Assembly: GCA_020347565.1 (NCBI GenBank)
Contig: CP070732.1
Span: forward strand, 405,921-469,920
Length of the DNA: 64,000 nt
Reading direction: 5' to 3'
Source of the DNA: Methanobacteriota archaeon
GTDB taxonomy: Archaea > Thermoplasmatota > Thermoplasmata > UBA10834
Below are positions 43,731 through 60,713 of the stretch, piece after piece. The notes below the pieces were generated by a model. That model was not told the origin of the DNA. It saw only the letters and a program-made list of their open reading frames with translations, and did not search any database. Within the stretch, counting starts at the first letter, position 1. Every line of letters starts with the position of its first letter. The translations under genes and the position numbers were made by a program.

Positions 43731-46163
43731 ATGGCGAAGAAGAAGAAGAAGGCCAAGGAAGAGGCCATCGAATGCCCGAAGTGCGGCGGCAGGTCGGCTC
43801 CAGAGTCACCCGAGTGCGAGCATTGTGGAGAAGCGCTGACCACGGAGCGTCCAGCTTCGGCTCCCAAGGACAATGAGGCCAGCCATAAGGGGGCGGAAGA
43901 GCCTCTGGACGAGCTCATGTCACTGCCAGGCATCAAGAGGGCGAAAGCTGAGCTGCTGCACGAGGCGGGCTTCAGGAGCATCGCGGACATCCGCGAGGCG
44001 AAGGTCGACCAGCTCGCGAGCGTGAAGGGAATCGGCCATACCCTCGCAGAGCGGATGATACAAAACGCGAAGGAAATGGCGGCCCCCGCGAGAGATCGCG
44101 ACCTCGCGGACTGGCTCTCAGGAGAGGACGACGGATTGGCCGCATGGCTGTCCGGCGAGCAGCGGGTGGAGGCCCCTACGGCGGAAGCCGTGGCAGCTCC
44201 GGAGGTCCAGCGCGATGCGTCCCTCGTCAAATGGTTGGCGGGGGAGGAGGAATCGATTGACAGCTGGCTGGAGGAGACGGAGGAATTCGCGAAGCCGGAG
44301 AAGGCTGTCTCGACGAAGGAGCTCAGGTCGAGGGAGGCCGAGGTATCGCAGCTGCGGGACGTACTGATCGAGAAGATCAGGCTGATTGACGCCGGCGAGT
44401 TCGACCCCCAAGCGGTCATCGAGGAGGCCGCGACGATGAAGACCGAGTTGGAGGCCGAGCGCGGCAGGACTTCGAGGCTCGAGGAGGAGCTTGAGAACGT
44501 CAAGCGCGGCAGCATCGCGGTCATCAAATTCATAAAGCAGCAGCACGAGACCGGCATCACCGGCGAGAACCTCGCTGACAAGCTCGCCGGGGAGATGGCG
44601 GCGAAGGAGGTACTTCAGCAGAAGGTGAGCGAGCTGGAGAGCATGATGGCGTCTCTGAGGGAGAAGGCCGAGCAAGGGATCTCGGAACTCCCGCCGGAGG
44701 AGAAGGACCTCCGGCGTCGCGAGATGGAGGTGGCGAAGCGCGAGGCACAGCTCCAGGTCATGGAAAGGCAGATCAGAGCGAAGGAACAGACCTTCGCCGA
44801 CGCCCTGATAGACTACGCCTCCCCTCCCACGACTTCTGTTGACGGGGGAATGCTGGACCAGAGGGCGGAGGAGTTCGCTTCCAAAGAGCGGATGATGCGC
44901 GAGAAGATCGAGAAGCTGGAGGCCGACCTCTCGCAGGCGACCATCGACCTGAAGCACATTGAAGAGAAGATGAAGATGTCCAAAGGGACGTCGCAGGACA
45001 TCGAAAATGGGGCCATGCAGAAGCTTCAGGATGCCCAGCGCATGGAGAGGAATCTCGTCCTCAGGGAGCAAGAGGTCGCCAGGCTCAAAGAGGACCTGCG
45101 GATACGCGAGGAGGAAATGGCGCGTCTGAAGGAGCCGCTCGCGTACAAGGAAGACGAGCTGTTGCGGCGCGAAGAGGACCTGATGTACCGCGAGAAGCTT
45201 CTGCAGGAGGAGAACAGGAAGCTCTCGCAGATGCAGCTGGAGATGGGCAGCCAGGACGAAGTGGCGCTCAAGAAGAGGCTCGAGGAGCTGCAGGCCCAGG
45301 TCACCGCGAAGGAAGAGGAGATACGCAGCAAGGAGAAGTTCCTCAACGTCAAGGAGGAAGAGCTGCGCATAAGGGAGCAGGGGCTCATCGACGACGAGAT
45401 CGAGCGGCGTGAGCTGGACCGTATGGCCGAAATCAAGCTCGAGAAGGTCAAGACCGGCACCGGGAGGCTGGACGACCTTCTGCTAGGGGGCATACCGTTC
45501 GGGACGAACGTGCTCGTCTACGGGCCGCCATTCACCGGCAAGGAGGTGCTCGTGAGCTCGTTCGTCGGTGAGGGGCTCAAGATGGGCATCCCTGCGATAT
45601 GGGTCGTCACCGAAAAGACTCCGAAGGAGATCAGAGAGGAGATGATGTACGTCCTGTCGGGGTACGAGGAGTACGAGAAGAAGGGACTCGTGAGGTATGT
45701 GGACTCGTACTCGAGGGGTATGGGCGATGACTCCGAGGACGAGTACACGGAGTTCATAGAGTCGCCGACGGACTACGAGGCGATACAGAGGGCGGTCGAG
45801 GAGGCGGCGAAGAAGTTCAAGGAATCGCACCAATACTACCGGCTCGCCTTCAGGTCGATATCGACGCTGATAGCGTACCTCGACCCGAACACGGCTTTCA
45901 GGTTCCTGAGCCCGATTGCTGGCAGAAGGAAGAGAGACCGAGCCGTATCCATGTACACCATCGAGAAGGGCGTCCACGGCGAGCAGGAGATACAGATGCT
46001 GGGCTCGCTGATGGACGGCATGATAGAGTTCAAGGTGGAGAACCTCAACACATTCCTGGCGGTACGAGGCATATCGGATGTTCAGTCCAGGGCGTTCATA
46101 AGGTACTCCGCGACGAAGCAGGGAGTGAACATAGGTTCGTTCTCTCTGGACCACATCAGATGA
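43731..46163 (+). CDS. Zinc ribbon-HhH-coiled coil-KaiC-like fusion protein (ATPase motifs eroded)
   Basis: The 810-residue protein has a basic start, a zinc ribbon (Cys15, 18, 29, 32), and a helix-hairpin-helix pair (LMSLPGIKRAKAELLHEAGF, VDQLASVKGIGHTLAERM; about 62-108). A coiled coil follows (about 190-580, heptads rich in E/K/L). A RecA/KaiC/FlaH-like domain starts at TGTGRLDDLLLGGIPFGTNVLV. Walker A is GPPFTGKE (Glu instead of Ser/Thr) and the Walker B region reads YRLAFRSISTL (Arg instead of Asp), so ATP hydrolysis is doubtful although nucleotide binding may remain. GAGGAGAG precedes the ATG. Its position ahead of the pilus-type operon recalls FlaH next to FlaI/FlaJ in archaellum loci. 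Function inferred: scaffold or regulator. Confidence 0.88.
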   Translation: MAKKKKKAKEEAIECPKCGGRSAPESPECEHCGEALTTERPASAPKDNEASHKGAEEPLDELMSLPGIKRAKAELLHEAGFRSIADIREAKVDQLASVKGIGHTLAERMIQNAKEMAAPARDRDLADWLSGEDDGLAAWLSGEQRVEAPTAEAVAAPEVQRDASLVKWLAGEEESIDSWLEETEEFAKPEKAVSTKELRSREAEVSQLRDVLIEKIRLIDAGEFDPQAVIEEAATMKTELEAERGRTSRLEEELENVKRGSIAVIKFIKQQHETGITGENLADKLAGEMAAKEVLQQKVSELESMMASLREKAEQGISELPPEEKDLRRREMEVAKREAQLQVMERQIRAKEQTFADALIDYASPPTTSVDGGMLDQRAEEFASKERMMREKIEKLEADLSQATIDLKHIEEKMKMSKGTSQDIENGAMQKLQDAQRMERNLVLREQEVARLKEDLRIREEEMARLKEPLAYKEDELLRREEDLMYREKLLQEENRKLSQMQLEMGSQDEVALKKRLEELQAQVTAKEEEIRSKEKFLNVKEEELRIREQGLIDDEIERRELDRMAEIKLEKVKTGTGRLDDLLLGGIPFGTNVLVYGPPFTGKEVLVSSFVGEGLKMGIPAIWVVTEKTPKEIREEMMYVLSGYEEYEKKGLVRYVDSYSRGMGDDSEDEYTEFIESPTDYEAIQRAVEEAAKKFKESHQYYRLAFRSISTLIAYLDPNTAFRFLSPIAGRRKRDRAVSMYTIEKGVHGEQEIQMLGSLMDGMIEFKVENLNTFLAVRGISDVQSRAFIRYSATKQGVNIGSFSLDHIR

Positions 46164-46857: not shown

Positions 46858-46992
46858 TTTGAGGGCGAGGCATCGGACGGCTGAGTTGCAGCCCCAAAGC
46901 ACTTCGATTATCGGCGACCAAATGCTCCGGAAATCTGTGCGGTCCAATGCTTCATCGGCGAGTGTATTTCGCCCGATACCAGTAACGACACT

Positions 46993-47002
46993 TTTAAATA
47001 TA
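46993..47002 (+). promoter_or_regulatory. TATA box of the pilus-type operon
   Basis: TTTAAATATA, 49-58 bases before ATG 47051; expected start near 47027, giving a leader of about 25 nt with GGTGG ahead of the ATG. Confidence 0.6.
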
Positions 47003-47050
47003 TTCCAGGTACTGATTAGGTTGCTTTGGCGCCCTAGTTTCGGTGGTACG

Positions 47051-48019
47051 ATGTACTTGTCACCCCCGCAATCCGCATATTGTGGAAACTCAAGGTCTAG
47101 AAGGATCAGGAAGTCACCGCGATGGGACGATGATGAGGGGGTTGCGGCGACCGTGGGGACGATAATGTCCCTCCTCGTCTTCCTCACATTCATGGGTGTC
47201 TTCACGAACCAGTTCATACCCGTGTGGATGGGGGACAACGAGAGCGCGCACATGTCGGACGCGATCGAGCAGATTTTGGCACTGAAGTCGGACATAGATG
47301 GACTGATCACTGACTACGCCGACAGCCTCATAGCCCCGACGCCTCTGGTGATACCCGTCACCCTCCATGCTCAAGGCATTCCTGTCTTCGCAGCAGCCAC
47401 GTCAGGCATCCTCTCCTACGTCCCTGAATACACCTACGGGCGGCCCTCGCTGAACACCAGCTACACCAGCGAGCTCGAGCCGGACGACGGCCGCAGCGGC
47501 GGGGAGTTGAGGCTGTATTGCCCGAACAGGTACTACGTCGAGCAGTCGCTCATCTACGAGTCGGGCGCGGTCATACTCAACCAGTCGGATGGCGAGTTCG
47601 TCCTATCGGGCATCCAGCTCTCGGTCCAGGACTACAACAACAACCTCATACTGAAGATGACCCAGGTGTCGCTCCAGGGCGTGAACAAGACCATCGGTGG
47701 CGTCGGCACTAAGACCGTCCACGCCGACCTCATGTTCGCGTCCACGATAGAGTACACCAGCAGCCCGGCCCACGACGTGAACATCACGATCGCTACGAAG
47801 CATGGCATGGCATGGGCCAACTACTTCAAGAGGGCGCTGAACTCCTCGCAGGCGGACCTCACTTATGGCGTCGACTTCACCGTGCCGAGCCCGACTTTCT
47901 ACGACAATCCAGGGAAATCGAATGACTACTACATCGTCAATGTGAAGATTTCAGGCGTTGGCGTGTTCTACCATACCAAGGCGATCGTACAGATCTCTCT
48001 CGGAGAGCTGGGAGTGTGA
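47051..48019 (+). CDS. Pilin-like/type IV pilin-domain surface protein
   Basis: The 322-residue protein (start ATG 47051 after GGTGG) has a charged leader, RSRRIRKSPRWDDDEG, then one hydrophobic helix, VAATVGTIMSLLVFLTFMGVF. This resembles archaeal pilins of the DDRAVSPVIGTILM type. The remaining 270 residues are strand-rich, with several N-x-S/T sequons (for example NTSYTS, NSSQAD), typical of an exported, N-glycosylated head. It is the first gene of a five-gene operon with two secretion ATPases and two platform proteins, so it is probably the assembled or anchored subunit. Longer in-frame upstream sequence crosses the promoter. Confidence 0.78.
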   Translation: MYLSPPQSAYCGNSRSRRIRKSPRWDDDEGVAATVGTIMSLLVFLTFMGVFTNQFIPVWMGDNESAHMSDAIEQILALKSDIDGLITDYADSLIAPTPLVIPVTLHAQGIPVFAAATSGILSYVPEYTYGRPSLNTSYTSELEPDDGRSGGELRLYCPNRYYVEQSLIYESGAVILNQSDGEFVLSGIQLSVQDYNNNLILKMTQVSLQGVNKTIGGVGTKTVHADLMFASTIEYTSSPAHDVNITIATKHGMAWANYFKRALNSSQADLTYGVDFTVPSPTFYDNPGKSNDYYIVNVKISGVGVFYHTKAIVQISLGELGV

Positions 48020-48028
48020 GGTGAGCGA

Positions 48029-49786
48029 GTGAGCCAGGCTGCGGAAAGCAAGAGCAAGACCGACATACCAATCGAGAAGCCGGAGCAGCCCTTCTTCACA
48101 AGGGTGTATCGCGGATACCTCAACGCGCTGAGCAAGCGCAGGTCCAAGCCCGTGCCGGTGAGGGAGGCCAAGGGCGCGGAGGCCAGAAGGAGGCAGTGGA
48201 GGCACGGGAGAGGGTCGGCGTACACCGAGGTTCCGCCAATAACCGACCCCGCCGTGCAGGAGACCGCGTTCTACGGAGTCGTCGAGCCGTTCAGTTACAT
48301 ACGGGTCACGTACAACCAGAGCACGAGCGAGTACATCCTCAACGTCATCGAGCCGGAGCTGGACGAGTTCGAGCAGGAAACGCTCGACATGATCAAAGCC
48401 ACCCTAGAGAAGACCCTCGACTACGAATGGGAGAAGCTTGACGTGATGGACAAGAAGACCTACCTGGAGAAGAGCGTGGACAGCTTCGTCAGGACGAGGG
48501 GCATAACGCTGGAGCCCATATCGGAGGACAAGATCAAGTACTTCATCGGCCGGGACTTCGTTGGATATGGCCCGATAGACACTTTGATGAACGACATTCA
48601 TGTGGAGGACGTCTCGTGCGACGGCGTTGGCATACCACTGTTCGTCTTCCACAACAAGTACGAATCCATCAAGACCAACATAGTGTTCGACAGCGAGGAC
48701 GCCCTGAACTCGTTCGTCATCAACCTGGGACAACGCTGCGGGAAGCAGCTGTCCGTCTCGAACCCGATCCTCGATGGGACGACCGCCGAGGGACACAGGG
48801 TCCAGGCCACATACGCCAGAGAGGTCACCACGAGGGGCGCGTCGTTCACCATCAGACGATTCAAGGAGAAGCCGTTCACGCCAGTCGAACTGATCAAGTA
48901 CGGAACGGCCTCGCCCGATATAGTCGCCTACCTGTGGCTGAGCGTGGAGCACGGCGAGTCGGCCATCATATGCGGCGGAACGGCGAGCGGCAAGACGGCC
49001 ACGCTGAATGCGATGGCGCTGTTCATACCTCCGGGCGCGAAGGTCGTCACCATGGAGGACACGAGGGAGATCAACCTGCCACATGAGAACTGGATCCCTG
49101 GCACCACGCGCTCGGGCGCAGGTGAGAGGGGACCGGACGGCAAGGCGGCGGGAGAGATAGACATGTACGACCTCGTGCGGGCAGCTCTGAGACAGAGGCC
49201 GAACTACATCATCGTGGGAGAAGTAAGAGGCAAGGAGACCTACACGATGTTCCAGGCCATGGCGACGGGGCACACGACGTACTCGACCATGCACGCTGAC
49301 TCCGTGAAGGGCATGGTCAACAGACTGGAGAACCCGCCCATCAACTGCCCGAGAATCCTGCTGACGGCGCTGAGGAACGTCCTCATCCAGACTCATGCGA
49401 GAGTGGGCATGGACATGGTCAGGAGGATCAAGCAGGTCATCGAGATAGTCGGTTTCGAGCCCGAGACGAACGAGCTCATCAGCAACACGGTCTACGAATG
49501 GGACCAGGCAGGAGACAAGTTCGTATTCAAGGGTCACAGCTTCCTGTTCGACAAGATCATGGAGATGAAGAACCTCACTCACGAGGAGCTCATGGAGGAG
49601 TTCCAGAGGAGGATAGACATCGTGAAATACATGCTCGCGAAGGACATGTCCGATCACAGGGACATTTGGAATCTGATCAGGGCATACTACAAGAGCCCGA
49701 AGGAGACGGCCGCGAGGGTCAGGCGCGAGCTGGGCATCAAGGCGACGCCCGAAGGAGAGGAAGCTGGAGGTGTTGCGGTTGGTTGA
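48029..49786 (+). CDS. Type IV pilus/Tad-type secretion ATPase, copy 1 (GspE/TadA/FlaI family)
   Basis: The 585-residue protein has an N-terminal helical part with a basic stretch and the CpaF/FlaI middle domain (KYFIGRDFVGYGPIDTLMNDIHVEDVSCDG, HNKYESIKTNI). Catalytic motifs are intact: Walker A ICGGTASGKTATLNAM, Asp box MEDTREINLPHENW, Walker B YIIVGEVRGKE, His box ATGHTTYSTMHAD. It should form a hexamer on the inner membrane face that drives pilus assembly or secretion. The GTG start has GAGGTG 5 bases upstream, 9 bases after the pilin-like gene; the end overlaps the next gene. Confidence 0.93.
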   Translation: MSQAAESKSKTDIPIEKPEQPFFTRVYRGYLNALSKRRSKPVPVREAKGAEARRRQWRHGRGSAYTEVPPITDPAVQETAFYGVVEPFSYIRVTYNQSTSEYILNVIEPELDEFEQETLDMIKATLEKTLDYEWEKLDVMDKKTYLEKSVDSFVRTRGITLEPISEDKIKYFIGRDFVGYGPIDTLMNDIHVEDVSCDGVGIPLFVFHNKYESIKTNIVFDSEDALNSFVINLGQRCGKQLSVSNPILDGTTAEGHRVQATYAREVTTRGASFTIRRFKEKPFTPVELIKYGTASPDIVAYLWLSVEHGESAIICGGTASGKTATLNAMALFIPPGAKVVTMEDTREINLPHENWIPGTTRSGAGERGPDGKAAGEIDMYDLVRAALRQRPNYIIVGEVRGKETYTMFQAMATGHTTYSTMHADSVKGMVNRLENPPINCPRILLTALRNVLIQTHARVGMDMVRRIKQVIEIVGFEPETNELISNTVYEWDQAGDKFVFKGHSFLFDKIMEMKNLTHEELMEEFQRRIDIVKYMLAKDMSDHRDIWNLIRAYYKSPKETAARVRRELGIKATPEGEEAGGVAVG

Positions 49787-50807
49787 AGTGGCCGACCCGT
49801 TCAAGAACGTGGAGGTCAGGAGGGAGGAGTACCTCCGGACGAGAGCGGCTCAGGACGGCCAGTTCATGGGACCGCACCTGATCAGGATGACCAAGGGCGC
49901 CCTGCCGGAATACATTAAGCTCACTCCGTATCAGGACTTCTGCTGGAGGCTTATGGGTGGCTGGGCGTCCGCCAAGTCGAACGACAACCAGGCCCTCGAC
50001 GATGCGTTGCTCAAGGCGCACATGAAGATACGCGCCGAAGAGTACATGGCGTACGTGATGACCTCGACGATTCTGGCGGCCGTCATAGGCATCGCTATAG
50101 GGATAGGCGTGGGGATAGTCCTGATGGGCTTCATGGGAGTCGCCATCATCGTCAGGATAATGATTGCAGCGCTCGCCATCATTCTGCTGCCCATGATGGC
50201 ATACTTCCTCCTCATGGGCTCACCTGCGTCGAAAGCGAAGGGGCGCGCGAGGGACATTGACAAGCGGCTCGCAGCGGCGATGAGCTTCATCTCGGCCATG
50301 GCATCCGCGGATGTCAACATCGACGTGATATTCAAGGAGCTCTCGAGACAGAAGGTCTACGGAGAGATAGCCGCTGAGGCGGCGTGGATCACGAGGGATA
50401 CGGAACTCCTCGGGTCGGATATATTGACCGCAATAAAGACGGCCGCGAGGCGGTCCCCGTCCGCGAAGTTCCAGGACTTCCTCCAGGGCGTCATCACCAC
50501 ATCGACATCCGGCGGTCAGCTGAAGCCGTACTTCCTGCTCAAGGCGGAGGAGTACCAGAAAGAGAACAAGCTCGCCCTCAAATCCCAGATGGAGACGCTC
50601 GGGATGCTCGCGGAATCGTTCGTCACGGTGGTCGTCGCGTTCCCGCTCTTCCTCGTGCTCATCATGGCCATCATGGCAATCGTCGGAGGAGGTGACTCGA
50701 GCTTCATGCTGACGATGCTGTACGTCATAGTCCTCATGATGATACCCGTGTCGCAGTTCGGATTCATATTCGTCATATGGAACATGTCAAAGGAGAGTGC
50801 TATGTAG
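49779..50807 (+). CDS. TadB/TadC-like platform protein, copy 1
   Basis: The protein (342 residues from TTG 49779) has two membrane helices after about 95 residues (MTSTILAAVIGIAIGIGVGIVLMG, IMIAALAIILLPMMAYFLL), one T2SSF domain (KRLAAAMSFISAMASADVNIDVIFKELSRQKVYGE... SGGQLKPYFLLKAEEY) and two C-terminal helices. It is the membrane platform for a secretion ATPase. The start is uncertain: GTG 49770 is possible, but GGAGGTG 49766-49772 is well spaced for TTG 49779. It overlaps the ATPase stop, and the next gene begins at the base after its stop. Confidence 0.9.
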   Translation: MVEVADPFKNVEVRREEYLRTRAAQDGQFMGPHLIRMTKGALPEYIKLTPYQDFCWRLMGGWASAKSNDNQALDDALLKAHMKIRAEEYMAYVMTSTILAAVIGIAIGIGVGIVLMGFMGVAIIVRIMIAALAIILLPMMAYFLLMGSPASKAKGRARDIDKRLAAAMSFISAMASADVNIDVIFKELSRQKVYGEIAAEAAWITRDTELLGSDILTAIKTAARRSPSAKFQDFLQGVITTSTSGGQLKPYFLLKAEEYQKENKLALKSQMETLGMLAESFVTVVVAFPLFLVLIMAIMAIVGGGDSSFMLTMLYVIVLMMIPVSQFGFIFVIWNMSKESAM

Positions 50808-51752
50808 ATGGCCCAGGAAGAACCAGTGGCAAAGAGGGCCAAAGACAAGGAGAAGGTCGTCAAGGAGCTGCTTGGGGCGTCCGAAAAGCCCGATAGGACG
50901 AAGACGGTCCTTGGAGTATCCGCGGCGCTCATGGCGCTGTTCGTCGTCATGGCCTTCATCGACTACATAGAGAGCCTCAACCTCCCGCTTGAACCGATCG
51001 ACTACGTGATCTTCGGGCTGCTCGCCTTCCTCGGCCCTTACGGGTTCTACGCGAGCACCAGGGAGAAGCACGTAAGGGAGATCGAGTCGAGGCTGCCCGA
51101 CTTCCTCCGCGACGTCGCTGAAGCCGGCCGGTTCGGTATGACCCTCGCCGACGCGATAGTGGTCGCGTCCTCGGGCAGATACGGAAGGCTCACGCCGGAG
51201 ATCAAGAAGATGGCGGCCCAGATCGAGTGGGGCGTCCCGGCGTCGGAAGCCGTGGAGCTCTTCGCTACAAGGGTCAAGACGCCGCTCGTGACGAGGATGG
51301 CGTCGATCATACGGAAGGCGAACGACGCCGGGGGAAACGTCGCTGACGTTCTGAGCATGGTCTCGAGGGACGCCAAGGAGACCATACTGACCCAGGAGGA
51401 GCGCAACGTCACGATGTCCACCTACGTCATGGTCGTCTACATATCGTTCTTCGTGTTCATCGCCACGATAATAATCCTGCAGGCGCAGTTCCTGCCCAAG
51501 ATGGAGGAGGCCGGGAGGACAGTCAGCGAGGGTGCGGAGGAGCTGGGACTCGAGGAGATATCGGGCGTCAACATCAACGTGTCCATCATCCCCGAGGTGT
51601 CGTTCATATTCCTCTTGTCCGTGATAGTACACGCTGCGGGCGATGGCATACTCGCGGGCGTGATACAGAGGGGCAGCGTGCCGATAGGCATGCGACACAG
51701 CTTCATAATGCTGGTCATGGGATTCATCGTGCTCAGAGTGCTGTTTGCGTGA
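50808..51752 (+). CDS. TadB/TadC-like platform protein, copy 2
   Basis: The 314-residue protein has two N-terminal membrane helices (TVLGVSAALMALFVVMAFIDYI, VIFGLLAFLGPYGFYAS), a T2SSF domain (EIESRLPDFLRDVAEAGRFGMTLADAIV... EWGVPASEAVELFATRVKTPLVTRMASIIRKANDAGGNVADVL) and three further helices. It is about half the size of archaellum FlaJ, comparable to bacterial TadB or TadC, so copies 1 and 2 may together form one heteromeric platform. ATG follows the preceding stop with no gap, and its TGA overlaps the GTG of the second ATPase by four bases. Confidence 0.9.
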   Translation: MAQEEPVAKRAKDKEKVVKELLGASEKPDRTKTVLGVSAALMALFVVMAFIDYIESLNLPLEPIDYVIFGLLAFLGPYGFYASTREKHVREIESRLPDFLRDVAEAGRFGMTLADAIVVASSGRYGRLTPEIKKMAAQIEWGVPASEAVELFATRVKTPLVTRMASIIRKANDAGGNVADVLSMVSRDAKETILTQEERNVTMSTYVMVVYISFFVFIATIIILQAQFLPKMEEAGRTVSEGAEELGLEEISGVNINVSIIPEVSFIFLLSVIVHAAGDGILAGVIQRGSVPIGMRHSFIMLVMGFIVLRVLFA

Positions 51753-53497
51753 TTGAGATGACAGAAACCGAGAGGCCTAGGGTCGAGATGGGTGATGCGG
51801 CGGCGAGACAGCCGATCCAGCCGCAGGAAGAGGAGAAGGCGAAGGGGCGAGCAGGCATCCGGTCGTCGTACTATGGGCTGCTGAGGAAGATCAAGGCCCG
51901 GCCGGTGAAGGTCACCATCTCCGCGAGCGAGGCCCAGACGGATCTGAGCCAGATAACCGAGATCCCGAAGATCACCGAGGCCAACATAGACGAGGTCGAG
52001 ATAGCGCCGATCAAGAAGAACTACTCCTACGTCCGGATACGCTACGACAACATCGCCAACGAGTACACGTATGAGGTGATCGAGCCTAAGCTCGTGGAGG
52101 ACGAGAGGAGGCTCCTCGAACTGCTGAAGGAGACGCTCGTGGCCTCCGTGGAGCGGATGGTGGAGGAGAACGAGGCTGACAGGCAGAAGTACCTCCGCCG
52201 TATCACCGAGGAGCTGATGGTCAAGCTGAACATCACGCTGCACCCGATATCGAAGGAGCGCGTGATGTACTACATCATCAGGGATTTCATCGGCTACAGG
52301 GACATCGATGTGATGATGATCGACCCGAACGTCGAGGACTGCTCGTGCGACGGCGTCGGCGTGCCCCTCTACGTCTATCACCGCAAGTACGGGTCCATCA
52401 GGTCCAACCTCAAATTCGAGAAGGAGGTGGGGCTGGACGGCTTCGTCGTCTGGCTGGCCCAGAGGTGTGGCAAGCACATATCCGTCGCCAGCCCGCTGCT
52501 CGACGCCACGGTCCCCGACGGTTCGAGACTCCAGGCCACATTGGGGAAGCATGTGACCAAGCGCGGCTCGTCGTTCACCATCAGACGGTTCAAGGAGAAC
52601 CCGTTCACGCCTCTCGACCTCCTCAAGTTCAAGACCATGAGCACGGAGATGATGGCGTACTTGTGGATAGGCATTGAGCACGGGCAGTCGATGCTCGTGT
52701 GCGGCGGCACCGCGAGCGGCAAGACCACGACCCTGAACGCCGTCCTCCTGTTCATACCGCCTCAGATGAAGATCGTGTCGATAGAGGACACGAGGGAGCT
52801 CAACCTCCCACATGAGAACTGGGTACCCGGCCTGACAAGAGAAGGTTTCGGCGGGAAGAGCGCCGTAACCGGCAAGGCCGCGGGCGAGATAGACATGTTC
52901 GACCTGCTCACGGCGGCGATGAGGCAGAGGCCGCAGTATCTGATGGTCGGCGAGGTCAGAGGCAAGGAGGCGTACGTAGTGTTCCAAGCCATGGCCACCG
53001 GCAAGACCTGCTACTCGACCTTCCACGCGGAGGACGTCCAGGCCATGGTGCACAGGATGGAGAACGACCCGATCAACCTGCCCAGGGCGCTCGTGACGGC
53101 CCTGAATATCGTCCTGCTGCAGGCCCAGGTCAAGGTGGGTACGAAGATGACGAGGCGGGTGAAGTCCCTGACGGAGATCGTCGGCATAGACCCCGAGACG
53201 AACGAGCTGATAACCAACTCCGTCTACACCTGGAACCCTGCAGACGACACTTTCAACTACAGCGGACACAGCTATGTCTACGAGAAGGTCAGGATGGCCA
53301 GGAACTGGGCCCCCAGGGAGATGGAGCGGGAGATAAAGCGCCGGGTCGACATCCTGGAGTACATCAAGAGGATGGGCATAGACAGCCACCGCAAGGTCGC
53401 CGCTGTGATATCGGCCTACTACAAGGACCCCGATAAGGTCATGAAGGAGGTCAGGGCGAAGCTGGCGGAGAGCGGCGACGCGGGCCTTGGCCAGTAG
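51749..53497 (+). CDS. Type IV pilus/Tad-type secretion ATPase, copy 2
   Basis: The 582-residue protein repeats the architecture of the first ATPase in this operon. Matching regions are YIIRDFIGYRDIDVMMIDPNVEDCSCDG, Walker A VCGGTASGKTTTLNAV, IEDTRELNLPHENW, Walker B YLMVGEVRGKE, and ATGKTCYSTFHAED. All catalytic positions are kept, so both copies look active. The N-terminal 90 residues differ most between the copies. The GTG start (51749) overlaps the previous stop by four bases; ATG 51758 is an alternative. It is the last gene of the operon; a hairpin follows at 53512-53534. Confidence 0.93.
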   Translation: MIEMTETERPRVEMGDAAARQPIQPQEEEKAKGRAGIRSSYYGLLRKIKARPVKVTISASEAQTDLSQITEIPKITEANIDEVEIAPIKKNYSYVRIRYDNIANEYTYEVIEPKLVEDERRLLELLKETLVASVERMVEENEADRQKYLRRITEELMVKLNITLHPISKERVMYYIIRDFIGYRDIDVMMIDPNVEDCSCDGVGVPLYVYHRKYGSIRSNLKFEKEVGLDGFVVWLAQRCGKHISVASPLLDATVPDGSRLQATLGKHVTKRGSSFTIRRFKENPFTPLDLLKFKTMSTEMMAYLWIGIEHGQSMLVCGGTASGKTTTLNAVLLFIPPQMKIVSIEDTRELNLPHENWVPGLTREGFGGKSAVTGKAAGEIDMFDLLTAAMRQRPQYLMVGEVRGKEAYVVFQAMATGKTCYSTFHAEDVQAMVHRMENDPINLPRALVTALNIVLLQAQVKVGTKMTRRVKSLTEIVGIDPETNELITNSVYTWNPADDTFNYSGHSYVYEKVRMARNWAPREMEREIKRRVDILEYIKRMGIDSHRKVAAVISAYYKDPDKVMKEVRAKLAESGDAGLGQ

Positions 53498-53691: not shown

Positions 53692-56600
53692 TCAGCGGGA
53701 CTCGTCGTCCTTCTCGGCCGGCGTCCTGATGATCTTCTTCGGCACGACCTTGCGGTCGATGGGCCTTCGGACCACCTTCTTCTGCGCCGCCACGGCTCCA
53801 GCGCCTCCCTCGGGCGGCCTCCTCTGTGCGGGCGGGGCACGCTCCTCCGGCATCGGCTCCTCCTCCGCGAACGGCAGCTCCTCGGGCGGCATCTCGCCTG
53901 GAGGCTCTCCGCCCTCACGGGCGAATATCGTGCCGCACTTGTGGCATACAGTCGCCTCGCGCGGGTTCAGTGTGCCGCAGACCGGGCATGGCACCGGACC
54001 TTCCTTCCGTTTCGCTTCCTCCTTCGCGAGCCAGTCGTCGAAGCTGACGTAGGTCGGCTGAGCTCTCCACCACTCCTCGAAGCGCTTCTCGCTGTACTTC
54101 TTGCCGAGGTCGGCCTTCGCCATCTCCCTGTACTCGGAGGCCATCGCCTCGTACTCCGACCGCATCTTGTCCAGGTAGTCGAGCTCGCCCTCTCCGGGCT
54201 CGCCGACGAACTTGACGCCGCAGTTCGGGCACTCCGAAGCCGAGGACGGCACCCATGCGCCGCATTCGGAGCACTTCATCGTTCCCGCCTCGAATTCGAC
54301 GCCACACTTCGGACATCTCTTGCTGGCGGCCGGGATGAAAGCACCGCACTCGCCGCACTCGACGAGCTTGCCCAGACCATACACGTACGTGTAAGCGGTG
54401 AACCCGACGACGACGGCGATTATGACGGCGATCACGATAAGCCAGATGAGCAGCGGTATACCCTCAGCGCCCCCCTCACCTGTGATGGTGAATGTGGGGG
54501 ATGAGTAATCCGCACCCTGTATGTCGACGCCGACATAGTACTGGCCGGTGGTCAAGTCCTCTGGGATTAGAAGCGGCACGCCCTCGACCTTGCCATCGTC
54601 GTTGGTCGTACGGGAAAGCGGAAGATCTCCTATCGGTACGCCCGCCGATTCGAACAGGCGTAGAGTCAATGGCAGGCCCACGACGGGAGCGCCGTCATCG
54701 GTGTACAGGACCTCGACATCGGCCACGACCGAAGTCCCGGCTTCGTAGTCGTCCTTAAACGTCGTTACCGTGACGTCGACGTCCAGCTCCTCGACCTCGA
54801 ACGCTATGTCCGCGAAGTTGTTGGCCTCTCCGGACTCGTTGACCTCGTCTCCTGGGTCGACGAGTGCCCAGATGACATAGTCACCAGGAGTGGACAGGTT
54901 GATCTTCCACTCAAGGGGAACGACGGTGAGGTTCCCAGGGCCCATTTCGGGCAGGGACTCCTCGTGTGTGTAGTTGATCTCATCGCTTGCCGTTCTTATG
55001 CCCCACTCCAGTACGACACCGGACACGGAACTCGCACCCAGGTTCTCAACTTCGATGGCGATGGCGACCGTTCGACCCCACATCTGTCCCGTTATGTTCT
55101 CTCCATCGTAGGTTACCGATATGCCCGCGTCGGTCACCTGCAGGTCGGGGCGTATATCGGAAACGGTCATCACGCCGCTCACGTTGTTGTTCAGCCAGGA
55201 CTGCTCCTCGAACAGCCTGTCGGGGTTCGCCGAAAGCATCACCACGAAGTCGGTCGTATCCGCCACGAACGGCGCGACGATCTCGAACTCGATTACGCCG
55301 GTACCAGAGCCGGAGACGAAGGTTCCGTCGATGTACTTCTCGTTGACCTTCTCGCCGTCAATGAACAACCCGACTACTGGGTCCGTCACCGGAGCCATCT
55401 CCAGGTTCACCAACGTTGCGCTCACCGTCACCGTCTGACCGCTAGCCACGGTCGAAGGGCCTCCGAACTCGAAATCGCTAAGGGCCAGGTCTGGGTAGTT
55501 GTAGACGGTCACCTCGAACGAGGCGTTGTTGTTGGCGTAGGATATCTCTGGCACGGTATGGTTCTCGTTGACGAGAACGGTTATGGTCTGGTCACCGATA
55601 TTCTCCGGGATCCAAAGAACCGAAGTGTCGATGTAGCCGCCCGGGGACACGGAGGATATCGTGTATTCTCCTATCAGGTTAGCAGGCCCGACGAGATCTA
55701 TCGTTGCGTTGTAGAAGGCGACGGGGACGTTGTATGCGTGGTTGTCGCCAATATTGTATATCCTCGCCACGAGAGTGCACTGCGAGTCGACCACCGGCTC
55801 TGGCGGGTTGCTGTACATCTCGAAGTCGGGCGATGCGTACAGGTCTGGGAGATTCTGCACCATCACGGAGCCGTACCCGAACGCTTCCGAATCATCCAAC
55901 TCGTTTATCAGATCGTCGGGGTCAACCTCGACCCTGATGCTATGAGCGGTCGGGTACAACGGCTCGTCGGCGACCCAAGTGGCCTGGACCTCCGTCGCGT
56001 CAGTCGGATGCGGCGCTATGCTCGGCACGATGACCGATGCGAACTGGAGGTCATTGTCGAAGAAGTCCACCTGAACGTCGTATGCGACGGAGATCCCTAT
56101 GTTCCGAACGAGGGCGGTGATCGTCGTCTCCTGGCCGTTCAGCGGGCTTTCTGGATCGCTGCTGATCGCCCCGGTTTGCGCTATGGTGAGGTCCGGCAAC
56201 GCCGCGGATATCGTCAGCGTCGCATAGGTGGCGTTCCTCCCCAGTGGCTCCGTGTACGGCATGACGCCGACATCGATCTGCTGTTCCGAATCGTATGGCG
56301 TCCCCCCGTACACGTATGTTGCGTTCACGCTGTAAGCTCCGGCATAGCTCGGGCCGGACGAGGTCAATGTGGTGCCCAGGCAGTTCAACCGGGCAACGCC
56401 CATGGCGTCCGAGACTGCCGAGGTCCACAGCTCCTGTGGTGGTATCAGAGTGTACGCGAAGACGTCCACTCCCGGCAACGGCTTGGCATTACCGTCAAGG
56501 ATGGACACGTGTATCCACCTGTATATGAGGGCGACTGCGTCGCCCTCGACGGCTATCGACGGGACGCTCGTGTTGGTGAATCCTCCGACGGCGGAGCCGG

Positions 56601-58770
56601 ACAAGACAGGCTCGCTGGTGATGTTGCAGTCGTAGATGCTGATGATCGCCCTCGAGTTGTACGACGTGGTCAAGTCGCCATTGTACGTATCCGTTCCATC
56701 GAGGATTACCGTCGCGTCTTCCTTCGCGACTATGCTCACTCCGTGCATATCCGAATCGAGGACTTCCAGCGTGCCGTGTCCCTGGACCACGATGTCAATC
56801 GGCAGTTCGCTATCTATGTGGCAGTCCTCGAATATGAGATGCCCGTTGCCGTCGACATATATCGTACGCTCATTCGGGACGTTCTGTACCAAGATGAATT
56901 CGACGTTGCGGACTATCAGCTCGCCATCGGATGCAACGATGACGTCTCCCGCATGGTAGAAGATCATATTCTCGATCGTGAAGCTCTCTTCGCCAGTCAT
57001 CAATGGAACGACCAGCCATCTCGAGCTGTCTGGGCTCGGAACGGATACGCCTGAGATCTCGACCGTCAGGTCCCCGCTCTGGTCTCCTAAGTCCATGGCG
57101 GGATATGCGGGGAGCGAATAGCTCTCGGTGGAACTGTAGATGCCATCGATGTCGGCGGTCCCGGTGAATGCATATGACCCAACGAACCGCGAGTTAGCAG
57201 ATCCGTCACTGACGATTATGTCCGTCAGATACGGTATCACAGCCTCTCCGTTCTCCTTCGTCGTCTTGTAGGACGCGGTGTCCTCGCCCATGTAGTCGAG
57301 TACGTCAGAGTCGGGCGTCAGCGACACGCCATCGACCGTGTAGTAGAATGCCTCCTGTCCCTCGAGGTCCGTTGCACCCGTGAACACGGCGTCGATCGTG
57401 GCATTCGGAATCGGAACGCCGTACTCGTCTCCGACCGTAGCGTTCAGCCACCGGTAGACATACGCCTCTCCGCCCGCGCTGAAGACGACCCAGAGGCTCT
57501 CGAACTGCACGGAGCCCGTGGTCGCGCCGTTCACGAACCTGACATCCATGTTGCGCAGCTCGCCGACGGTGTCTATCGTCGCGATCGGCAGGTCATACGT
57601 CGCGGTCGTCCCTGGCGGGTCAGTAGCCTGAGGCTGTATTGGGGTTTCTTCCCATGGTACTGCCGTCTCGCGCTTCCACTGAAGGAACGTGGCGCCATCG
57701 TATGTGGGGTCGACTGAATATCTGACTACTATCGACGCTGAGCTTATGTCGGTCGCATCGAGCAGCGTTCCGACGTCCCAGGTCTCCATCTCCATCGTCT
57801 CCCCAGCTTCGACAACATAAGCCCACGAATCCACAGCGGCAAGGGCATCGACGTCTTCCCCGACCGTCGTGTCTCCCGGAGCCGCCGGCGGATTAGGAAC
57901 CGCTGGGGACGTGGTCACTCCTGAAACAATCACGGCAGGGGCACGGTCCGCGAGCGCTCCCACGTACTCGTCGAATGTGGTACCGTACAGGTACGCCTTG
58001 GATAGGTCGTTGGCTACGAGGACGTTATGCACACGCCAGTCGACCACGTCGAACGCCGGCCCGAAGTCGACGCTTATGTGGCTGTTGACCGACAAGAGCG
58101 CTGACGCGCCGTTCAATGTGAGGTTGCCCGCAGGCAGCATATCCGCCGGGTACTCGGGCATCGAGTCGATGGTCGAGTCGTATAGCTGCAGTGTGGAGTC
58201 GGTGAGGTCCATCTCTGGGCCGTCGTTCGCCGAGTCGAGCGTGATCAGCCCTGACGATCCGACGACATACTGTGCGACCAAGCCCTCGTCGAGCGCGGTT
58301 ATCGTTGAGTCGCGGAGGACCATCTTCGATTCGTCCGTGAGCGTTATCCCTCCCGGGAACCTCAGCTCCGAACCGTTGGTCGCCACGACGGTCCCGCCGT
58401 TGATGACCGTGAGCTCGAGCTCGGCCCATGGGTTTATCTGATCGAGATGGGTCGTGAGGACGCCGTGGTCGAGCATCAGCGTGCCTCCGTCCACTGTGAC
58501 CGTGAACCTCTGGTCGAAGTTGCTGATGACACTCAGCGTGCCGTCGATGACCTTCAGCGTTCCGCCGCTCATGACTTCCACGTTGCCGTCGACGTACTGA
58601 CTGAGGTCTTGTATGACGTACGTTGTCCCGTTCGGGATGATCAGGTCGCCCGAGGCGGTTGTTCTGTCGCCTGCGATGAACAAGCCTGCAAGCGCCGACA
58701 CGACGAACGCAGACGCGACCAATGCTGTCAACGACCTTCTAGCTAGAAAAGGGCCAGCTCTGTCAATCAT
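53692..58770 (-). CDS. Giant CARDB-repeat surface protein with single membrane anchor and cytoplasmic zinc ribbons
   Basis: The roughly 1692-residue protein starts with a signal sequence (SLTALVASAFVVSALAGLFIAG). A beta-helix/parallel-strand region comes next (about 40-900, repeated GGTLKVIDGTLSV and VEVMSGG style turns), followed by several CARDB-like Ig domains (about 920-1420; DLTIAQTGAISSDPESPLNGQETTITALVRNIG, DLALSDFEFGGPSTVASGQTVTV). One membrane helix lies near 1436-1462 (LLIWLIVIAVIIAVVVGFTAYTY). The cytoplasmic tail has three CxxC...CxxC zinc ribbons and a basic end (KKVVRRPIDRKVVPKKII). ATG 58770 follows GGTG; GTG 58782 is an alternative. TATA box at 58819-58829. It converges on the pilus-type operon. 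Function inferred: cell-surface/envelope-spanning component. Confidence 0.9.
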   Translation of the reverse strand: MIDRAGPFLARRSLTALVASAFVVSALAGLFIAGDRTTASGDLIIPNGTTYVIQDLSQYVDGNVEVMSGGTLKVIDGTLSVISNFDQRFTVTVDGGTLMLDHGVLTTHLDQINPWAELELTVINGGTVVATNGSELRFPGGITLTDESKMVLRDSTITALDEGLVAQYVVGSSGLITLDSANDGPEMDLTDSTLQLYDSTIDSMPEYPADMLPAGNLTLNGASALLSVNSHISVDFGPAFDVVDWRVHNVLVANDLSKAYLYGTTFDEYVGALADRAPAVIVSGVTTSPAVPNPPAAPGDTTVGEDVDALAAVDSWAYVVEAGETMEMETWDVGTLLDATDISSASIVVRYSVDPTYDGATFLQWKRETAVPWEETPIQPQATDPPGTTATYDLPIATIDTVGELRNMDVRFVNGATTGSVQFESLWVVFSAGGEAYVYRWLNATVGDEYGVPIPNATIDAVFTGATDLEGQEAFYYTVDGVSLTPDSDVLDYMGEDTASYKTTKENGEAVIPYLTDIIVSDGSANSRFVGSYAFTGTADIDGIYSSTESYSLPAYPAMDLGDQSGDLTVEISGVSVPSPDSSRWLVVPLMTGEESFTIENMIFYHAGDVIVASDGELIVRNVEFILVQNVPNERTIYVDGNGHLIFEDCHIDSELPIDIVVQGHGTLEVLDSDMHGVSIVAKEDATVILDGTDTYNGDLTTSYNSRAIISIYDCNITSEPVLSGSAVGGFTNTSVPSIAVEGDAVALIYRWIHVSILDGNAKPLPGVDVFAYTLIPPQELWTSAVSDAMGVARLNCLGTTLTSSGPSYAGAYSVNATYVYGGTPYDSEQQIDVGVMPYTEPLGRNATYATLTISAALPDLTIAQTGAISSDPESPLNGQETTITALVRNIGISVAYDVQVDFFDNDLQFASVIVPSIAPHPTDATEVQATWVADEPLYPTAHSIRVEVDPDDLINELDDSEAFGYGSVMVQNLPDLYASPDFEMYSNPPEPVVDSQCTLVARIYNIGDNHAYNVPVAFYNATIDLVGPANLIGEYTISSVSPGGYIDTSVLWIPENIGDQTITVLVNENHTVPEISYANNNASFEVTVYNYPDLALSDFEFGGPSTVASGQTVTVSATLVNLEMAPVTDPVVGLFIDGEKVNEKYIDGTFVSGSGTGVIEFEIVAPFVADTTDFVVMLSANPDRLFEEQSWLNNNVSGVMTVSDIRPDLQVTDAGISVTYDGENITGQMWGRTVAIAIEVENLGASSVSGVVLEWGIRTASDEINYTHEESLPEMGPGNLTVVPLEWKINLSTPGDYVIWALVDPGDEVNESGEANNFADIAFEVEELDVDVTVTTFKDDYEAGTSVVADVEVLYTDDGAPVVGLPLTLRLFESAGVPIGDLPLSRTTNDDGKVEGVPLLIPEDLTTGQYYVGVDIQGADYSSPTFTITGEGGAEGIPLLIWLIVIAVIIAVVVGFTAYTYVYGLGKLVECGECGAFIPAASKRCPKCGVEFEAGTMKCSECGAWVPSSASECPNCGVKFVGEPGEGELDYLDKMRSEYEAMASEYREMAKADLGKKYSEKRFEEWWRAQPTYVSFDDWLAKEEAKRKEGPVPCPVCGTLNPREATVCHKCGTIFAREGGEPPGEMPPEELPFAEEEPMPEERAPPAQRRPPEGGAGAVAAQKKVVRRPIDRKVVPKKIIRTPAEKDDESR

Positions 58771-58818
58771 TAGTTCACCCACCCAGAGTCTGGGGAATGG
58801 ACAAAGTAAGCAGTTCGT

Positions 58819-58829
58819 GTATATAAAAA
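58819..58829 (-). promoter_or_regulatory. TATA box of the CARDB surface protein gene
   Basis: Minus-strand TTTTTATATAC, about 50-60 nt ahead of ATG 58770, an excellent archaeal TATA match. Confidence 0.6.
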
Positions 58830-58877: not shown

Positions 58878-59885
58878 CTAGGTCGCTTTTTTCTTCACAA
58901 TCTTCTTCACGAATATCTGCGGCTTCTTCTCTTCCTTCGCCGGCGGCTGCGCCGTCGGCGCACCTGACTCCGCCGCCTTCGCGGAGGCGTCCTTGACGTG
59001 TGCACCACAGGCGTAGCACATGACCGCGTCCTTGCTGATCATCGTGCTGCAGTTGGGACATGGGAACTCCTCCTCGGACTCAGACTCCTGTGCGGCCTCG
59101 GCGCTGGCCGGCGGCTCCTCGATCTCCCGAAGCTTGTGCCCGCAGGCATAGCACATCATCGCGTCCCTGCTGATTATCGTGTTGCAGTTCGGGCAGGACA
59201 TCTCATCGTCTGCCACGGGCTGCGCCTTGGTCTCTCCGGCCGGCGTCTCCCCGGCGTCCGATGGAGTCTTCGTCACGGTGGTCAGCATCTCCTCCTGTCG
59301 GCGCAGGAGCTTCCGAGCGTCCTCCGACAGCTTCCCGCGGTCCTTCCTGAGGGACTCCTCCTCATCGACGAGCGCGCGTTCGCGGGCCACGAGCGCGTCC
59401 CTGCGCGATATGATCTCCTCCATCAGCCCTTGGAGCTTCTCCTCCTCGGCCTTCAGCTGCTCCTCCCGGTCCAGCACGGTCTTGCGCTTTGTCGACACCT
59501 CTTCCATCTGACCGGACACCTCCTCGAGCCTCTCGGAGTATTCGCGGTGCTTGGCCTCCGCACCCTCGACCGCCTCGGCAATCTTCGACTCGAGCTCCTT
59601 CAGCTCCGCTGTCCGCTCATCGAACTGCCTCTCCCTGTCGAGCATCGTCGACTCGCGCTGCTTCAGCTCCTCCTCCGCCTTCTGCGTAACAGCCTCTTTC
59701 TCTCGGAGCGCCTCCTCGCGCTGGTTAAGGCGACCGTCAAGTTCTTCCAGCTCGGCCTTCTGCTTCGCGATGCCTTCCTGCTGGGTCTGGAGTTCCTGAT
59801 CGCGCTTGCGGACCTCGGCCTCCTGTGTCTTCAGTCGCTTGACCGCGTCCTCGATTATCTGGGAGATTGTCGAGTCTTCCGTCAT
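58878..59885 (-). CDS. Coiled-coil protein with two C-terminal zinc ribbons
   Basis: The 335-residue protein is almost entirely coiled coil from about 5 to 210 (E/K/Q/L heptads). Two near-identical zinc ribbons follow: CPNCNTIISRDAMMCYACGHK and CPNCSTMISKDAVMCYACGAH. It ends in a Lys/Pro-rich tail, QIFVKKIVKKKAT. The ribbon style and the basic Val/Ile/Lys tail resemble the cytoplasmic end of the CARDB surface protein encoded just downstream, and the coiled coil resembles that of the KaiC-like fusion at 43731-46163. No enzymatic motif is present. It probably acts as a scaffold with the KaiC-like protein encoded 114 bases upstream. Confidence 0.85.
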   Translation of the reverse strand: MTEDSTISQIIEDAVKRLKTQEAEVRKRDQELQTQQEGIAKQKAELEELDGRLNQREEALREKEAVTQKAEEELKQRESTMLDRERQFDERTAELKELESKIAEAVEGAEAKHREYSERLEEVSGQMEEVSTKRKTVLDREEQLKAEEEKLQGLMEEIISRRDALVARERALVDEEESLRKDRGKLSEDARKLLRRQEEMLTTVTKTPSDAGETPAGETKAQPVADDEMSCPNCNTIISRDAMMCYACGHKLREIEEPPASAEAAQESESEEEFPCPNCSTMISKDAVMCYACGAHVKDASAKAAESGAPTAQPPAKEEKKPQIFVKKIVKKKAT

Positions 59886-59999: not shown

Positions 60000-60713
60000 C
60001 TACGTGCTGAGAAGCGGCCCAAGGACCGTCATGCCCGACTTGCCGACCTCTATGGCGTGGCGTTCCATGCTGTGCTCGGCGGCCCTCATCTTCTCCACCT
60101 GGAGGAAGCGCACGAGCTTGCCGCGGGGCCTGTCGAGACCCAGCATCAGTATGCCATCGGCGAGGAAGCCCTCGTTCCCGAGGAGCTGGGACTCGCCGTC
60201 CAGGGAGCGTTCCATTATTATGAACGAGTGGAGGTTGTTATCCCTGAGCATCTTGAAGAAGTAGAACATCTTCTTGCGCATGTTCTTCTCGTTCTCCATC
60301 AGCGAGTAGAGGGCGCCGAGCGAGTCGAGGACGAAGACGGAGAACTTGTCGCCGTGCGTCCTCCGGAACCGCTGTATCATCTTCTCGATGAAGAGGACGT
60401 AGTCGGTCTGCACCTCGTCGCCTATGACCTCGTCAATCTGGTCGATCTCCCGAAGGTCGGTCATGTCAGATATCTGCATCTTGGCGGACACCTTGACGCC
60501 CATGCTGTTCATGTTGCTCATGTGGCTGTCAGCAGTCTCCTCGAGCGTGGCGTACAACCCGAACTCGTTCTTGTCCCTGAGATACATCGACATTATCGAG
60601 TAGCAGAAACTGGTCTTCATCGAACCCGGAGGCCCTGTGACCAGCATTATCTTGGGCCGGTCGATGTCGTTCTTGAAGACCTTTTCGAGTCCCGGGATCG
60701 AATCCTTGAACAA
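60000..60713 (-). CDS. KaiC-superfamily ATPase (FlaH-like)
   Basis: The 237-residue RecA-fold protein has a Walker A variant GPPGSMKTSF (Met for the third Gly), Walker B SVFVLDSLGALYSL with intact Asp, and a C-terminal strand pair LVRFLQVEKMRAAEHSMERH with the basic loop of KaiC-like domains. Single-domain proteins of this size include FlaH, the archaellum ATPase regulator. The start is TTG 60713, chosen because GGAGG lies 7 bases upstream and a stop precedes without any ATG. A TATA-like CTTTAATTAAG lies at 60779-60789. It lies upstream of the coiled-coil gene and near the pilus-type operon, so a FlaH-like role is suggested. Confidence 0.88.
   Translation of the reverse strand: MFKDSIPGLEKVFKNDIDRPKIMLVTGPPGSMKTSFCYSIMSMYLRDKNEFGLYATLEETADSHMSNMNSMGVKVSAKMQISDMTDLREIDQIDEVIGDEVQTDYVLFIEKMIQRFRRTHGDKFSVFVLDSLGALYSLMENEKNMRKKMFYFFKMLRDNNLHSFIIMERSLDGESQLLGNEGFLADGILMLGLDRPRGKLVRFLQVEKMRAAEHSMERHAIEVGKSGMTVLGPLLST

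Follow-up and report, generated by a model that had tools for sequence, protein, structure and literature searches.

Gene organization of the locus

The window analyzed here is a 64,000-nt stretch of DNA from a Thermoplasmata genome. On its minus strand, positions 53692–58770 are occupied by a gene (hereafter, the CARDB/tail gene) whose 1692-aa product consists, in this order, of a signal peptide, an ectodomain, one membrane helix and a 235-aa tail. The same ORF is also open from a GTG at 58782 (53692–58782, minus strand, 1696 aa). The 1692-aa product is the likelier one because GGGTGA precedes the ATG at 58770 and a TATA-like element, TTTATATA (58820–58827, minus strand; recognized by sequence inspection only), is located about 50 nt further upstream. 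The CARDB/tail gene likely has its own promoter.

Upstream of this gene are located, also on the minus strand, the genes of a coiled-coil protein with two zinc ribbons and the basic C-terminus FVKKIVKKK (58878–59885) and of a 237-aa KaiC-domain ATPase, KaiC237 (60000–60713), as well as gyrA/gyrB. A gyrase-related or DNA-uptake role, considered in view of the nearby gyrA and gyrB, was rejected since this linkage was lost in families f7, f12, f14 and others. A T4P cluster on the plus strand (46859–53497) is convergent with the CARDB/tail gene and comprises, in this order, genes for DUF7289, ATPase1, TadC1, TadC2 and ATPase2. A scan for a terminator between the convergent gene and operon found none.

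Ectodomain, membrane helix and topology

The signal peptide region (58648–58770, minus strand) was recognized by hydropathy and has its hydrophobic core at about residues 17-37 counted from the GTG. The ectodomain of about 1395-1400 aa (54463–58647, minus strand) is lineage-variable and contains 18 N-glycosylation sequons. Three CARDB stretches (PF07705; E=1e-37, 128.8 bits versus a cut-off of 22.7) were found in it with Pfam, all on the minus strand, at 55891–56196 (G000:C1:461811-462116), 55519–55848 (G000:C1:461439-461768) and 54814–55089 (G000:C1:460734-461009). A Pfam match to a right-handed beta-helix at residues 595-688, N-terminal to the CARDB repeats, was weak and sub-threshold. Neither a kinase nor a HAMP, methyl-accepting or other known signalling domain was detected in any part of the protein with Pfam or NCBIfam, and its matches to these two collections included no ArlF/ArlG-type stator family. 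A PDB sequence search with the full-length protein gave no match. A literature search returned no paper on archaeal proteins combining CARDB with a zinc ribbon and nothing relevant on CARDB surface proteins.

The only strong internal hydrophobic segment, with a mean hydropathy of about 3.2, corresponds to a single transmembrane helix at residues 1441-1461 (54400–54462, minus strand). Topology was assessed on 83 distinct homologues, each at least 800 aa long, and in all 83 the helix stood directly before the first ribbon. Summed over these proteins, the 15 residues before the helix contained 35 K+R, versus 158 in the 15 residues after it. The frequency of N-X-S/T sequons per 100 aa was 1.96 outside versus 0.15 in the tail, while the reversed-motif control gave 1.15 and 0.43, respectively; in the window protein, all 18 sequons belong to the ectodomain and none to the tail. 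Cysteines numbered 243 in 106,778 ectodomain residues and 994 in 19,228 tail residues. In 61 of the 83 homologues, a hydrophobic segment was present at the N-terminus, and some of the remaining 22 start at contig ends. Considering that helix position, flanking charge, sequon and cysteine statistics agree, a single-pass protein with a cytoplasmic tail is predicted. The original prediction, which comprised an extracellular CARDB part, one helix and a three-ribbon tail, was borne out by Pfam, hydropathy and class-wide conservation.

Zinc-ribbon tail

The tail contains a double zinc ribbon (ribbons 1 and 2; 54208–54357, minus strand), which was identified by alignment and by a Pfam DZR match (PF12773) at residues 1476-1522 (2.4e-8, 34.5 bits versus a cut-off of 27.3). 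It is followed by a conserved W-rich helical stretch, YRxxAKxELGxxxSExxFxxWWxxQPxYxSFDDWL (53989–54207, minus strand), by zinc ribbon 3 (53923–53988, minus strand; Pfam Zn_Ribbon_1 at residues 1599-1618, 1.9e-7) and by a basic/aliphatic C-terminal end (53695–53802, minus strand) with a motif common to the neighbouring coiled-coil protein. All six CxxC knuckles (12 Cys) are C-terminal to the helix. The basic end that had been claimed for the tail is present, with the qualification that the tail as a whole has a pI of 5.3 and is clearly basic in its last 36 residues only (KKVVRRPIDRKVVPKKIIR).

The tail was found to be the most conserved part of the protein. Within family f1, identity to the window protein was 86-94% for the double ribbon and 82-95% for ribbon 3 versus mostly 25-66% for segments of the ectodomain. 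In an alignment of 18 sequences covering many families, 24 columns of the tail core, out of about 150, were invariant, including the ribbon cysteines and, in the numbering of the core, W39, A84, W100, F110, W113 and N135. These identities and invariant columns agree with the expectation that a docking module would be more strongly conserved than the ectodomain. A search of the window genome with the tail core gave one full-length match (239 bits), and the next one (49 bits) stopped short of ribbon 3. In view of this single match and of the class-wide conservation, the architecture cannot be ascribed to chance. Dozens of short zinc-ribbon matches were spread over many different proteins of this genome.

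In an AlphaFold2 model of the tail, the W-rich stretch formed three helices, and the pLDDT of this block was about 71 at its start and mostly 83-91; the pTM was 0.41, so that the model does not show reliably how ribbons and helices are placed relative to each other. A fold search of this model against the PDB gave no match at E<=0.001 (best E=0.01). The W-rich stretch had no Pfam or PDB match, and a PDB search with the tail profile returned generic zinc fingers and L40e-type ribbons only.

The architecture varies among lineages. Family f10 has a shorter variant with the last ribbon shifted to the end, and CARDB was not detected in the one member scanned. Outside the class, genome G077 encodes all elements of the architecture (a signal, a start with beta repeats, repeats resembling CARDB, a helix and three ribbons), and G043 encodes a version with two ribbons only. 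Two genomes of family f22 (G260 and G262) contain two full tail genes each, both on contigs other than that of TadC1. At locus L176 (G409), the CARDB gene is divided into two ORFs (1134 and 590 aa), possibly by a frameshift or an assembly error.

Neighbouring pilus operon

The first gene of the operon encodes a pilin-like DUF7289 protein (46859–48019, plus strand; the start is more probably near 47051) with an N-terminus of the EGVASTVGTIM..LVF type. This pilin-like N-terminus is conserved, with the consensus EGVASTVGTIMALLVFLT. A confident AlphaFold2 model of the protein (pLDDT 87.6) had an N-terminal helix of 68 residues together with a beta domain, and a fold search of this model against the PDB gave no match at E<=0.001. 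Secretion ATPase 1 (48029–49786, plus strand) and secretion ATPase 2 (51749–53497, plus strand) were assigned to the T4P/archaellum type, the former by family models and the latter also by a PilB3-like C-terminal domain (PilB3_C, PF23989; 36.2 bits versus a cut-off of 27), for which ATPase1 scored 21.6 bits, below the cut-off. The platform is split between TadC1 (49770–50807, plus strand) and TadC2 (50808–51752, plus strand); both contain T2SSF, TadC1 matching the N-terminal half of ArlJ and TadC2 the C-terminal half. A usual neighbour of the pilus operon is a gene for an 810-aa protein (43731–46163, plus strand) with an N-terminal zinc ribbon, a helix-hairpin-helix, a coil and a C-terminal KaiC domain.

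Assignment of the cluster to an archaellum was rejected. The ATPases scored 422 and 405 bits with the NCBIfam archaellum motor model, the cut-off of which is 550, the platform halves were far below the cut-off, and KaiC237 scored 25 bits versus a cut-off of 215 for ArlH.

Judging from the family matches, the cluster would belong to the clade-2 (PilB3-type) kind of T4P. It shares with the euryarchaeal clade-2 T4P described by Makarova et al. (2016; PMC4858521) VirB11/ArlI-like ATPases together with a PilB3_C domain, a pair of tadC-like genes and a pilin-like protein that is long and rich in beta structure; S-layer-like proteins are named there as additional components (PMC4858521). In contrast, CARDB and zinc ribbons are absent from the main text of that paper, and a membrane protein with a zinc-ribbon tail was not found there (PMC4858521).

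Two distinct secretion ATPases in one pilus operon were found to be conserved class-wide in Thermoplasmata. Two ATPases have been described as unique to C. divulgatum (PMC12448462), and an Aciduliprofundum boonei locus having two ATPases with one pilin gene was noted earlier (PMC4858521). In genome G032 (L054), a two-ATPase, one-pilin locus and the CARDB/tail gene are located on a single contig. This genome is probably that of Aciduliprofundum boonei.

Association of the tail with the pilus machine

Co-occurrence was studied in 200 Thermoplasmata genomes that were at least 90% complete. The tail was found in 108 genomes and TadC1 in 110; both were present in 104 and neither in 86 (Fisher p about 1e-43, a statistic that ignores shared ancestry). 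Independent joint absences were few (most of f6, f17 and f24). In all 60 genomes in which the tail and TadC1 were on one contig, they were within 15 kb of each other (median 4 kb). When named genomes were scanned with the tail alignment, 231 relatives were found, and the best 80 of these, which were kept, are labelled as Thermoplasmata, Thermoplasmatota, Methanomassiliicoccales and relatives, Euryarchaeota or unclassified archaea. Gene maps of these 80 and of 40 further stretches demonstrated that in most families the tail gene is located next to the pilus cluster, usually in a tail-to-tail orientation.

Such an arrangement might arise if the gene encoded an ordinary anchored CARDB adhesin that has stayed beside the pilus operon because the genome is slow to rearrange. 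Archaea commonly encode CARDB adhesin-like proteins, and the window protein shares with them the CARDB repeats (PF07705), the signal peptide and the membrane anchor. In addition, gyrA and gyrB are likewise linked to the gene in family f1, and no functional reason for this is obvious. However, the gyrA/B linkage was lost in many families in which the pilus linkage was kept. Adjacency to the pilus cluster was preserved despite an inverted pilus operon (L044, L045, L115, L119, L127 and L133) and also where DUF7289 had moved (L049, L050, L109, L123 and L135). Both the tail and TadC1 were retained in family f10, on different contigs, and therefore, their co-occurrence cannot be put down to linkage alone. 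The two genes were side by side in G158, the sole tail-bearing genome of family f6, whereas the other listed members of this family lack both. Outside the class, the tail was present, in some cases in a shorter form, in five of six genomes with TadC1 at E<=1e-80. The f10, G158 and outside-class cases speak against common ancestry or slow rearrangement as the sole explanation. Moreover, unlike CARDB adhesin-like proteins, the window protein has a conserved structured cytoplasmic tail, in which conservation is concentrated, and one full-length copy in the window genome. A chance neighbour of this kind is therefore considered very improbable.

Six genomes contained TadC1 without the tail. One of them (G241) is explained by a contig edge, and three are f10 genomes with unlinked genes (G288, G350 and G353); G303 and G394 are real absences, in which the pilus cluster is present without the CARDB/tail gene. 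Because these two genomes keep the cluster, persistence of the machine does not strictly depend on the gene. Tail-less homologues in the same gene neighbourhood, which would have contradicted the original prediction, were sought, and none was seen; where no tail was present beside the pilus cluster, either the whole gene was absent or the contig ended. The association of the tail gene with the pilus machine, as judged from these genome comparisons, is well supported and can be accepted with high confidence.

At loci L115, L119, L127 and L133, an unassigned ORF of 255-280 aa is located between the tail gene and the inverted operon.

Coiled-coil/KaiC block

The coiled-coil protein and, in a subset of lineages, KaiC237 are putative partners in the same module. 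The linkage of the CARDB/tail gene to their genes, which had been pointed out for the window, recurred, as both were conserved upstream neighbours in several families and were lost jointly with it in G303 and G394. In these two genomes of one genus (L151 and L152), KaiC237, coiled-coil and CARDB genes are absent as a block between gyrA and ATPase2, and their congener G407 (L175) has the intact order gyrA-KaiC237-CCZnR-CARDB-ATPase2. At a threshold of E<=1e-60, KaiC237 orthologs were found in 63 of the 200 genomes, nearly all of them tail-positive; they were missing from f4, f10 and much of f14. The block is therefore a real unit, but a narrower one than the tail-pilus link.

The view that the coiled-coil and KaiC proteins are the main partners of the tail was not upheld. 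The tail tracks the adjacent T4P cluster, on which the original prediction was silent, almost one-to-one, and KaiC237, with an ortholog in only 63 genomes versus 108 for the tail, was rejected as the main partner.

The coiled-coil proteins end in FVKKIVKKK, SIRKIIKRK or VRKILKRK, and the CARDB tails end in related VVPKKIIK-like segments. The pattern [KR]{2}[VIL]{1,2}[KR]{2} was searched for in the last 60 residues of the ORFs of the examined loci. It was present in 31 of 34 coiled-coil proteins and in 74 of 104 tails, some of which are cut by contig ends. Among the controls, it was found in about 1% (6 of 471 unrelated ORFs and 2 of roughly 450 other labelled neighbours), and one of the six unrelated ORFs, in L092, resembles an unlabelled coiled-coil protein. 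A 351-aa zinc-ribbon protein encoded elsewhere in the window genome (locus L144) has a similar basic/aliphatic C-terminal motif. The simplest reading of the common motif is a binding site shared by the coiled-coil protein and the tail. As for the docking of internal partners that had been proposed for the tail, linkage, joint loss and the common C-terminal motif fit it with respect to the coiled-coil protein, and it is plausible, but the key partner would be the pilus machine rather than the coiled-coil and KaiC proteins.

The block could also belong to a contact or signal receptor, the ectodomain of which senses a surface or ligand while the tail, the coiled-coil protein and KaiC regulate the pilus motor or transcription. 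KaiC-family ATPases have been proposed as T4P regulators (PMC4858521), the three genes are lost together, and the predicted zinc ribbons, together with the basic end, could be binding sites for protein or nucleic acid. However, no part of the protein contains a known signalling domain, and at least 45 genomes with the tail had no KaiC237 at the threshold applied. Such a receptor is thus thought to be rather unlikely.

Possible role of the CARDB/tail protein

The protein is probably an envelope-spanning scaffold or anchor and an accessory of the clade-2-type T4P machine of Thermoplasmata; confidence in the anchor or scaffold role as such is moderate. The machine would have a pair of secretion ATPases, a platform encoded by two genes and DUF7289 as its one pilin-like protein. 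The tail, with its three ribbons and W-rich helices, would dock on the cytoplasmic side of the machine and, in lineages that have them, the coiled-coil protein and the KaiC-type ATPase would dock together with it. The large, glycosylated, beta-rich ectodomain might reach the outer glycoprotein layer, the base of the filament or a surface. In this way, the protein would hold the machine in place or position it, and it could also relay information on contacts to the cell interior.

Alternatively, the protein may be a major or minor building block of the disordered outer layer, a structural surface glycoprotein that is held by its membrane helix and whose tail tethers this layer to a cytoplasmic skeleton, with the link to the pilus being indirect. 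Its large, beta-rich and lineage-variable ectodomain, rich in N-glycosylation sites, would suit such a role, Thermoplasmatales have, instead of an S-layer, an unordered layer of glycoproteins whose composition is not known (PMC12448462), and PilA-based T4P are described as having S-layer-like proteins among their additional components (PMC4858521). However, the gene is usually single-copy and is absent where the T4P machine is absent, though such cells also need a surface, and the f10 member examined is shorter and gave no CARDB match. It is therefore doubtful that the protein is primarily a layer component.

As a scaffold or anchor, the protein would play a part resembling that of the S-layer-linked stator proteins of other archaea. 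Like that proposed for the archaellum stator ArlF/ArlG, its job would be to tie a T4P-family motor to an outer protein layer. In contrast to the window protein, with its very large CARDB ectodomain and three-ribbon cytoplasmic tail, ArlF/ArlG act outside the membrane toward the S-layer (PMC12448462). A more specific version can be put forward tentatively: as a T4P basal component of a class not described before, the protein might cross the entire envelope and, by means of its zinc ribbons and W-rich helices, couple the cytoplasmic motor side mechanically to the outer glycoprotein layer, and the co-inherited coiled-coil/KaiC regulatory block might compete for or share the docking site via the common C-terminal motif.

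Thermoplasmatales lack a crystalline S-layer, and filament anchoring in them is an open question (PMC12448462). The CARDB/tail protein is a conserved candidate for holding T4P-family machines in archaea without such a layer, and this candidate is present in most Thermoplasmata families sampled, probably including the cultured Aciduliprofundum boonei. Through it, two uncharacterized proteins, the coiled-coil zinc-ribbon protein and the KaiC ATPase, would be tied to the same pilus machine. We know of no T4P or archaellum subunit in which a CARDB ectodomain, a helix and a zinc-ribbon tail are combined. The distribution of the tail suggests a component of archaea, present class-wide and associated with their T4P, that has not been described before.

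The CdiP pilus of Cuniculiplasma divulgatum resembles the window cluster in its two ATPases and in its platform, which is likewise encoded by two genes (PMC12448462). Unlike the window locus, it has no CARDB component in the main text of the paper (PMC12448462). Most genomes of family f6 gave no TadC1 match at 1e-30, though the gene content of CdiP matches that of the window cluster. This family is presumably that of Cuniculiplasma. Considering the lack of TadC1 matches in most f6 genomes, the CdiP platform probably represents a branch separate from the TadC platform of the window.
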